DNA of 54,854 bases from an uncultured Lachnospiraceae bacterium (GTDB lineage: Bacteria > Bacillota > Clostridia > Lachnospirales > Lachnospiraceae): the NCBI GenBank assembly GCA_902775555.1, contig CACYMQ010000034.1, positions 1 through 54,854 on the forward strand, given 5' to 3'. The notes beneath the pieces were generated by a model that saw only the letters and a program-made list of their open reading frames with translations, ran no database searches and had not been told where the DNA came from. The translations under genes were made by a program, and so were the position numbers. Position 1 is the stretch's first letter. Each line of letters starts with the position of its first letter. Positions 37,587-41,100 of the stretch are shown here, piece by piece.

Positions 37587-38147
37587 TTATTCATCATAGT
37601 CGGAATCATCATAGGATTCGTCTTCCTCATAGAACTCATCCTGCTGATCCAGTTCTGTCAGTTCACCCTGTTCATCCACACCGCTGAAGCCGTGTTCTTC
37701 CAGATCACCGGTATACTTCCGGTCTCCTTCCAGTGCACTGCGAAGATCGCGGTCATAATCAACGGACTCACCCAGGTCAACCTCATTTCCGTCCTCATCC
37801 TGTACGCGGACATCCAGACCCAGAGACTGGAATTCCTTAAGAAGTACCTTGAAGGATTCCGGAATACCGGGTTCGGGGATATTCTCGCCCTTGATGATGG
37901 CTTCGTAGGTCTTCACACGTCCGGATACATCATCGGACTTGACGGTCAGGATCTCCTGCAGCGTGTAGGATGCACCGTATGCCTCCAGAGCCCAAACTTC
38001 CATCTCTCCGAAACGCTGACCGCCAAACTGTGCCTTACCACCCAGAGGCTGCTGGGTTACAAGGGAGTACGGACCGGTGGAACGTGCATGGATCTTATCA
38101 TCAACAAGGTGATGCAGCTTCAGATGTCGATGGGAACGCCCTTCCAC
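37587..38147 (-). pseudogene. rpoB: RNA polymerase beta subunit, 3' fragment of interrupted rpoB
   Basis: The C-terminal part of RpoB in a different frame from the main part. Homology begins near 38123 at [20 protein letters not shown] and continues through [28 protein letters not shown] to an acidic tail. The first eight codons of this frame (from a GTG at 38147) are the other fragment read out of frame. Fragment N ends at a TGA at 38122-38120, right where this one begins. Intact relatives have about 28 residues (the YDGRTGE ... PVTVG segment) between WKGVPI and LKLHHL; here 5 nt remain, so about 79 nt are missing. No Shine-Dalgarno supports separate translation. This portion forms the beta-beta' clamp interface and is normally essential. 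Confidence 0.9.
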
Positions 38148-41100
38148 TCTTCTCTGTGATCACGGTTGTCATACAGGTATTTCATGACTTCCGGATCAAG
38201 CTGATCCTTGTATTTTGCTTCAAACTCTTCCCACTCTGTATTGACATAGTCATTTGCCAGCTCCAGAGTTGCCGTGATATCCTTCTCATTTGCACCGTCG
38301 AAGATCGGCGTGGAGATCTTGAAGCCGAGAGCCTGTGCTGCCAGACCCAGATGAAGCTCAAGCACCTGCCCGATATTCATACGGGACGGAACGCCCAGGG
38401 GGTTCAGCACGATATCCAGCGGACGCCCGTTCGGAAGGAACGGCATATCTTCTACCGGAAGGATACGGGATACGACACCCTTATTTCCGTGACGACCTGC
38501 CATCTTATCACCGACGGAGATCTTACGCTTCTGAGCGATATATACGCGAACGGACATATTGACTCCCGGAGGAAGCTCATCGCCGTTCTCTCTTGTAAAT
38601 ACCTTTGTGTCCATAACAACGCCGTAAGCGCCGTGAGGAACACGCAGGGAAGTGTCTCTTACTTCTCTTGCCTTCTCACCGAAGATGGCACGAAGCAGTC
38701 TCTCCTCGGCTGTCAGCTCGGTCTCTCCCTTCGGAGTAACCTTACCTACCAGGATGTCACCGGCACGAACCTCCGCACCGATACGGATGATACCGTTCTC
38801 ATCCAGATCCTTCAGTGCATCTGCTCCGAGGCCTGCCAGATCACGGGTGATCTCTTCGGGTCCCAGCTTGGTATCTCTGGACTCTGCCTCATACTCTTCG
38901 ATATGAACGGATGTATAGACATCCTCCTTCACCAGTCTCTCGGAAAGAAGGACCGCATCCTCGTAGTTATAGCCTTCCCAGGTCATGAATCCGATGAGCG
39001 GGTTCTTACCGAGTGCCAGCTCACCGTCACAGGTGGAAGCACCGTCAGCGATCACCTCGCCGGCCCGTACTCTGTCGCCGCGCTTTACGATGGGGCGCTG
39101 GTTCATGCAGTTACCCTGGTTGCTTCTTGCGAATTTGATCACATGATACTCATCCAGCTCTCCGTCATCGGTACGGACCTGGATCAGTTCACTGGAGGAC
39201 AGCTCTACCACACCGTCCCGCTCACAAAGGATACATACACCCGAATCCTCTGCGGTCTTGGACTCCATGCCGGTACCTACAACCGGGGAATCCGTCTTAA
39301 GAAGCGGAACTGCCTGACGCTGCATGTTGGATCCCATCAGCGCACGGGTGGTATCGTCGTTCTGCAGGAAGGGAACCATGGATGTAGCTACGGAGAATAC
39401 CATTCGCGGAGACACGTCCATGTAATCCACGGTATTCTTCGGGAACTCAGAGGTCTGGTCCCTGTAACGTCCTGCTACGTTGTTTCTCTCGAAATGACCT
39501 TCCTCATCCAGTGCTTCGGAAGCCTGGGCCACGATATAATTATCTTCTTCATCGGCTGTCATGTAGACAACTTCGTCGGTAACCACCGGATTCTCCGGAT
39601 CCGACTTGTCCACCTTACGGTAAGGAGCCTCTACGAAGCCGTATTCATTGATCCTTGCATAGGTAGCAAGGGAGTTGATCAGACCGATGTTCGGTCCTTC
39701 AGGGGTCTCGATGGGGCACATACGTCCATAATGGGTGTAGTGTACATCTCGAACCTCCAGACCTGCACGGTCACGGGACAGACCGCCGGGACCGAGAGCG
39801 GACAGACGACGCTTATGTGTCAGCTCGGACAGCGGGTTGTTCTGATCCATGAACTGTGACAGCTGGGAGGATCCGAAGAACTCCTTCACTGCCGATGTCA
39901 CGGGCTTGATATTTACCAGTGACTGGGGAGTGATGGTCTCGATATCCTGTGTCTGCATACGCTCACGTACCACTCTCTCCAGACGGGACAGACCGATACG
40001 GTACTGGTTCTGCAGCAGCTCACCTACGGAACGGATACGACGGTTACCCAGGTGATCGATATCATCGGAATTGCCGATACCATACTCCAGATGCATATTG
40101 TAATTAATGGAAGCGAAGATATCATCAACGGTAATATGCTTCGGGATCAGATCCCCGGCACTTGCCTTGATAGCCTCCTTCAGCTCCTCATCCTCTTCGT
40201 ACTTCTCGAGGAGCTCCTTCAGTACCGGATAGTATACGTCTTCCGTGATACCCAGTTCTTCGGGATCGACATCTCCGAGACGGTCCTTGATCCAGGGCTT
40301 GATGTCTACCATCATATTGGAAAGGATCTTCACGTTCCTCTCCTCTGTCTGAACCATTACATACGGTACGGCAGCATCCTGGATCCGCTTTCCTGCATGG
40401 CGGGAAAGGATCTCACCCTGTGCATACATAACCTCTCCGGTCACCGGATCGATCACATCCTCGGCAAGGATGAAACCGCGGACACGGTTCCGGAAAGCAA
40501 GCTTCTTATTGAATTTGTAACGTCCTACCTTTGCAAGATCATAACGTCTTGCATCGAAGAACATGCCATGTACCAGGCTCTCAGCGCTCTCAACCGCAAG
40601 AGGCTCGCCCGGTCTCATTTTCTTATACAGTTCCAGAAGACCTTCCTCATAGGAACGGGAAGGATCCTTCTCAAAGCTGGTAGTCAGCTTCGGTTCATCC
40701 CCGAACTTCTCCAGGATCTCTTCGTTGGAGCCGAGGCCCAGGGAACGAAGGAATACCGTGATCGGAACCTTTCTATTGCGGTCAACCCGCACCCAGAACA
40801 CGTCATTTGCATCCGTTTCATATTCCAGCCACGCACCACGGTTGGGGATCACGGTGCAGGAATACAGCGGGCGGCCTGTCTTATCATGCTCCATGGCATA
40901 GTAGATGCCCGGAGAACGAACCAACTGGCTTACGATTACACGCTCCGCACCATTGATCACGAAGGTACCGGTACGTGTCATAAGCGGAAGATCTCCCATG
41001 AAGATCTCATGCTGATTGATCTCACCGGTTTCGTTGTTGCGAAGCCGCACATTTACTTTAAGGGGAGCCGCATAGGTTGCATCTCTCTCCTTGCACTCTT

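Follow-up and report, generated by a model that had tools for sequence, protein, structure and literature searches.

The rpoB gene in the window analysed here is very probably broken by a draft-assembly error, and the gene of the organism itself is probably intact. Most likely, the organism carries one ordinary full-length rpoB. The window is a stretch of 54,854 nt and comprises the first 54,854 of the 59,096 bases of contig C34. This contig belongs to an assembly (G000; 3.01 Mb, 96 contigs) that is rated 99.49% complete and 0.81% contaminated and was probably derived from a metagenome. The evidence comes from the rpoB locus, from a second damaged gene in the window, from comparable breaks on other contigs and from the order in which the contigs are numbered.

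The rpoB gene lacks 79 nt and continues in another frame

We observed that the first 1075 codons of rpoB form an open frame on the minus strand, which then ends at a stop codon (Table 1). The rest of the RpoB protein is encoded by a minus-strand ORF (37587-38147) that directly adjoins the first in a different frame. The initial annotation had described this arrangement, together with a loss of about 79 nt, and both descriptions were borne out. BLAST comparison with the loci of 29 relatives (23 of the same genus and 6 of the same order, a subset of the listed matches to the C-terminal piece) gave a gap of exactly 79 nt in every case (29/29; plus-strand coordinates in Table 1). Base-by-base alignment with 10 of the 29 loci showed a single clean gap, the boundary of the junction being uncertain by 1-2 nt. 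Only these 1-2 nt are common to the two sides of the junction, which gives no support for slippage, and we set aside a microhomology-driven deletion.

Table 1. Positions of the rpoB and ATPase features in the window.
Feature	Position	Strand	Remarks
rpoB, whole	41347 to 37587	minus	
rpoB 5' part	38120..41347	minus	1075 aa; NCBIfam rpoB equivalog; 97% identity with G002 RpoB residues 1-1074
rpoB 3' part	37587..38123	minus	other frame, to C-terminus; 97% identity with G002 RpoB residues 1101-1280
rpoB junction	38122..38125		without 79 nt found in 29/29 compared relatives' loci; probable faulty contig join
Heavy-metal P-type ATPase	10454..12109	minus	551 aa vs 628 aa in G002
Second clean-loss junction region	11132..11170		about 231 nt; probable second faulty join

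The protein has lost about 26 residues, where the initial annotation had put the number at about 28. In the nearest relatives, the lost segment reads ...RDGRTG.EFPSKVSIGFMH. The earlier claim that residues are absent in addition to the frame shift was confirmed by the alignments and by the Pfam domain RNA_pol_Rpb2_6. The two pieces in the window cover profile positions 2-311 and 342-373 of this domain, and the protein of G002, a one-contig relative, covers positions 2-373 unbroken. The uncovered part, positions 312-341, matches the rpoB loss. Against TIGR02013, the 5' part scored 1398.7 bits, which is above the curated cut-off of 801.15. The 3' part alone scored 236.7 bits, which is under this cut-off, and covered positions 1132-1238. 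The uninterrupted frame of ~1280 aa that same-genus relatives possess is thus absent at the rpoB locus of the window, where two frames together fall 79 nt short.

Both protein pieces are also 92-93% identical to RpoB of a second relative, G036, and the block that bears rpoB is collinear with both G002 and G036. The genes upstream of rpoB are rplL and rplJ (41.6-42.6 kb) and the gene downstream is rpoC (33.6-37.6 kb), all named from the look of their translations.

We also considered a working polymerase whose beta subunit is made in two pieces, or is shortened by about 26 domain 6 residues through a -1 frameshift. Polymerase subunit genes split in two exist in other lineages, and it can be read directly from the sequence that a -1 shift would put ...PIDI in frame with LKLHHL.... 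Even so, about 26 residues found in relatives would still be absent, and the earliest start codon available in that frame, a GTG at 38147 downstream of the junction's stop, falls within sequence common to intact relatives. The arrangement occurs in none of the C-terminal-piece matches. A naturally split rpoB would carry all conserved segments over its two genes; here, about 26 residues are in neither piece. We regard a split or shortened subunit as hardly conceivable.

The assembly contains one rpoB, and the matches in other genomes do not show its break

A Pfam search of the whole assembly found no second rpoB; only the two pieces on C34 matched. The intact second copy that the initial annotation had named as a check was therefore not found. 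The missing segment, searched for as the G002 sequence with its flanks, was not present elsewhere in G000 either, the best match being 24 nt at 92% on C11. We rejected the idea that the missing piece had been left on another contig because the assembly holds no such match. A search for 16S in G000 gave no match; this is a weak absence, as the control was positive in 9/14 genomes and missed in 5/14.

Of 61 genomes, 46 (with that of the window among them) matched the C-terminal piece, giving 49 matches altogether. Of the 48 matches outside G000, 42 lie in frames that stay open over 1270 aa or more. The other six had frames of 215-801 aa and, by their coordinates, lie at contig ends (the contigs of these ends were measured for four). 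A break like that in the window was seen in 0/48 of these matches. Among the 45 other matching genomes, 42 had a single match; G029, G031 and G035 had two each, and all three are rated 5-7% contaminated. In a scan of named genomes, which may omit records from the window's own genome, the top match to the C-terminal piece among the best 80 of at least 597 was a Lachnospiraceae metagenome genome (82% identity).

These data bear on whether the window holds a true rpoB pseudogene whose working counterpart is absent from the assembly. A copy could be lost from a fragmented assembly, but the broken gene is the sole rpoB at an estimated completeness of 99.49%, and a second match was confined to the three contaminated genomes. 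Moreover, the broken copy remains 97% identical to its counterpart over its remaining length, and its surroundings are collinear with G002 and G036. A true pseudogene is therefore extremely unlikely. The initial annotation was sound in judging that such a state is not expected of an essential gene, and it had left both an artefact and a pseudogene open. The artefact is supported because there is one rpoB only, because an N run lies on the same contig, because a second gene in the window is damaged and because comparable breaks occur on other contigs.

A second gene in the window is damaged, and the contig carries an N run

We observed a second clean loss in a heavy-metal P-type ATPase gene (Table 1). 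Compared to G002, the protein lacks 77 aa, including the DKTGT motif (DKTGTLT), and the frame is kept. In such pumps, DKTGTLT is the site of the phosphorylated aspartate. Going by the role of this motif, the truncated ATPase could not be expected to work. Taken alone, this in-frame loss might be a real pseudogene. About 26.97 kb separates the rpoB junction (38,123) from the ATPase junction (~11,155).

Directly past the end of the window, C34 contains 14 N (C34:54855-54868), flanked on both sides by the same 9 bases, tttccgagc. No other N run was seen in the 1.05 Mb of G000 that was covered. The surroundings of the run are repeat-rich and resemble other repeat-rich proteins in the window. The 14 N and a length out of rank order both point to C34 being a scaffold of several contigs; as withheld sequence is also shown as N, the run could in principle be masking. 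The rpoB junction itself has neither an N run nor a duplicated stretch, so here we infer both the join and the pipeline step responsible for it.

Repeats were seen in several places. Three minus-strand regions of the window (43492-45630, 48436-52524 and 54626-54854) encode proteins that share C-terminal W/Y-rich repeats (GW.KDGKWYFMDKKSGAMKT...), and a perfect 60-nt repeat lies among them at 43943-44073. Short tandem repeats with the related motifs AAGATCCTTCGTCGCT, TCAGGATGACATGCTGTTT and TGTCATCCTGAGCGGAGCG occur at 47110-47229 in the window and on other contigs (L124:15043-15099 and L138:4170-4344). Their recurrence across contigs possibly reflects a dispersed repeat family.

Comparable lesions occur on other contigs

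We compared 1.05 Mb of G000 with 1.02 Mb of G002; the matches summed to 253 kb with overlaps kept. Three perfect tandem duplications break genes in G000. One of 32 nt (C40:20,664-20,728; L205:664-728) breaks a PspA/IM30-type gene, one of 22 nt on C1 (L120:964-1007) breaks a DUF5688 gene, and one of 31 nt on C17 (L136:790-851) splits a citrate synthase, complete copies of which are present on C20 and C28. On C13 (L132:3969-3972), a GNAT acetyltransferase gene lacks 122 nt compared to G002.

G000 had 19 perfect two-copy duplications of 18-160 nt and G002 had 5. After filtering for isolated, non-periodic cases, the numbers were 10 and 0, respectively. Three of the 10 filtered duplications shorten an open frame; another, at C1:2,099, makes the open frame longer, not shorter.

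We also performed an ORF test in both directions. Five of the 164 threshold-passing G002 ORFs shift frame in G000 (rpoB, the genes at the C1 and C40 duplications, and one ORF each on C14 and C28), and the ATPase stands out by a large loss that keeps the frame. When tested the other way round, 1/181 G000 ORFs shifts frame in G002, at the C28 place between genes. When rows flagged on any ground were counted (a frame change, a gap of at least 8 aa, or less than 85% covered), the numbers were 44/164 for G002 ORFs and 32/181 in the reverse test; small in-frame indels and incomplete coverage were present in both directions. The test misses genes whose longest ORF is antisense, such as the citrate synthase on C17. 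It also returned a 111-aa in-frame difference on C25.

Several candidates were set aside. C33:21,005 sits past a stop codon common to both genomes, C28:46,460 is an intergenic 2-nt indel, and C14:16,675 and C17:17,857 look intergenic in the alignments. The C14 ORF with a frame change (61% identity) was taken for a spurious antisense ORF. The lesion count also leaves out gap candidates on C27, C29, C30 (one) and C39, those at C33:7,918, C40:10,436 and C40:18,855, and several on C28.

A genuine deletion that only some members of the sampled population carry (dead or dying cells, or a minority variant), and that the assembler chose over the intact form, would account for the clean rpoB junction and for two flanks that are both 97% identical to the same relative. 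It would also need independent lesions in several unrelated genes, perfect tandem duplications included, and it leaves the order of the contigs, described below, unexplained. We consider such a deletion very unlikely.

Contig numbering is consistent with joined contigs

The contigs of G000 are numbered by falling length, save for over-long ones. Among the 61 contigs with seen lengths, length never increases with rank along a run of 34, compared to a mean of 12.7 and a maximum of 17 in 300 shuffles. Each of the remaining 27 exceeds the preceding in-order contig in length. The simplest reading of this order is that the number of a contig was set by its seed contig, to which others were joined afterwards.

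We compared the rank slots, meaning the lengths expected at a given rank, with the positions of lesions. The slot for C34 is 25,362-27,099, and the stretch between its two losses (~26,970) fits, these lesions having been picked after being seen. For C40, the slot is 20,511-21,625, and the 32-nt duplication leaves a first piece of ~20.7 kb, a comparison likewise made after the lesions were known. We count these fits as supporting, not proving, the reading by seed contigs. The remainder of C40, about 30 kb, exceeds the slot unless there is another join inside it; collinearity of C40 with G002 stops within the interval predicted for that join, at C40:32,249, where no lesion was seen. C1 and C17 have their duplications near the start (at about 1 and 0.8 kb, respectively) and lengths in rank order. 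They are neutral for the slot idea because a lesion so near the start barely alters length. No confirmed joins were found in C28, C33 and C35, which were read whole; C35 is almost without aligned sequence, and some candidates on C28 and C33 were left out.

Discussion

We propose that two contigs ending inside rpoB were set side by side in scaffolding or gap closing. They would have been joined end to end without the 79 nt that belong between them, and the printed rpoB would thus stop early and resume in another frame. If short-read contigs were imperfectly scaffolded or their gaps imperfectly closed, we would expect some joins to lose sequence and others to keep unmerged overlaps.

We ranked nucleotide conservation around the junction against that of short segments over the covered part of rpoB. 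The 150 nt upstream of the junction fell in the 19th percentile, the 79 nt in the 14th and the 150 nt downstream in the 92nd. The idea that the assembly broke at a highly conserved stretch is supported for the downstream flank only; neither the 79 nt nor the upstream flank supports it.

The break has no bearing on polymerase biology. It is a warning that, for all its ratings of 99.49% completeness and 0.81% contamination, this genome still has broken core genes unmarked by N. Because such breaks are unmarked, claims of gene loss or pseudogenes from genomes of this kind require read support.

Compared with ordinary bacterial rpoB (TIGR02013 / NF001616; Pfam RNA_pol_Rpb2), the two pieces in the window together carry the same Pfam domains as the intact G002 protein, and the window gene differs in being without 79 nt inside domain 6. 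The break itself can be set beside known errors in genomes assembled from metagenomes. According to a genome-curation paper (PMC7111523), such genomes contain gaps where contigs were scaffolded as well as errors of local assembly, and through these, gene sequences that are incomplete or wrong enter public databases. That paper relies on read support as its check, whereas the probable join in G000 was judged from the assembled sequence. In the features that this account of assembly errors brings out, G000 is alike: it has wrong gene sequences, several lesions in one assembly and an N run on the same contig as the broken rpoB.
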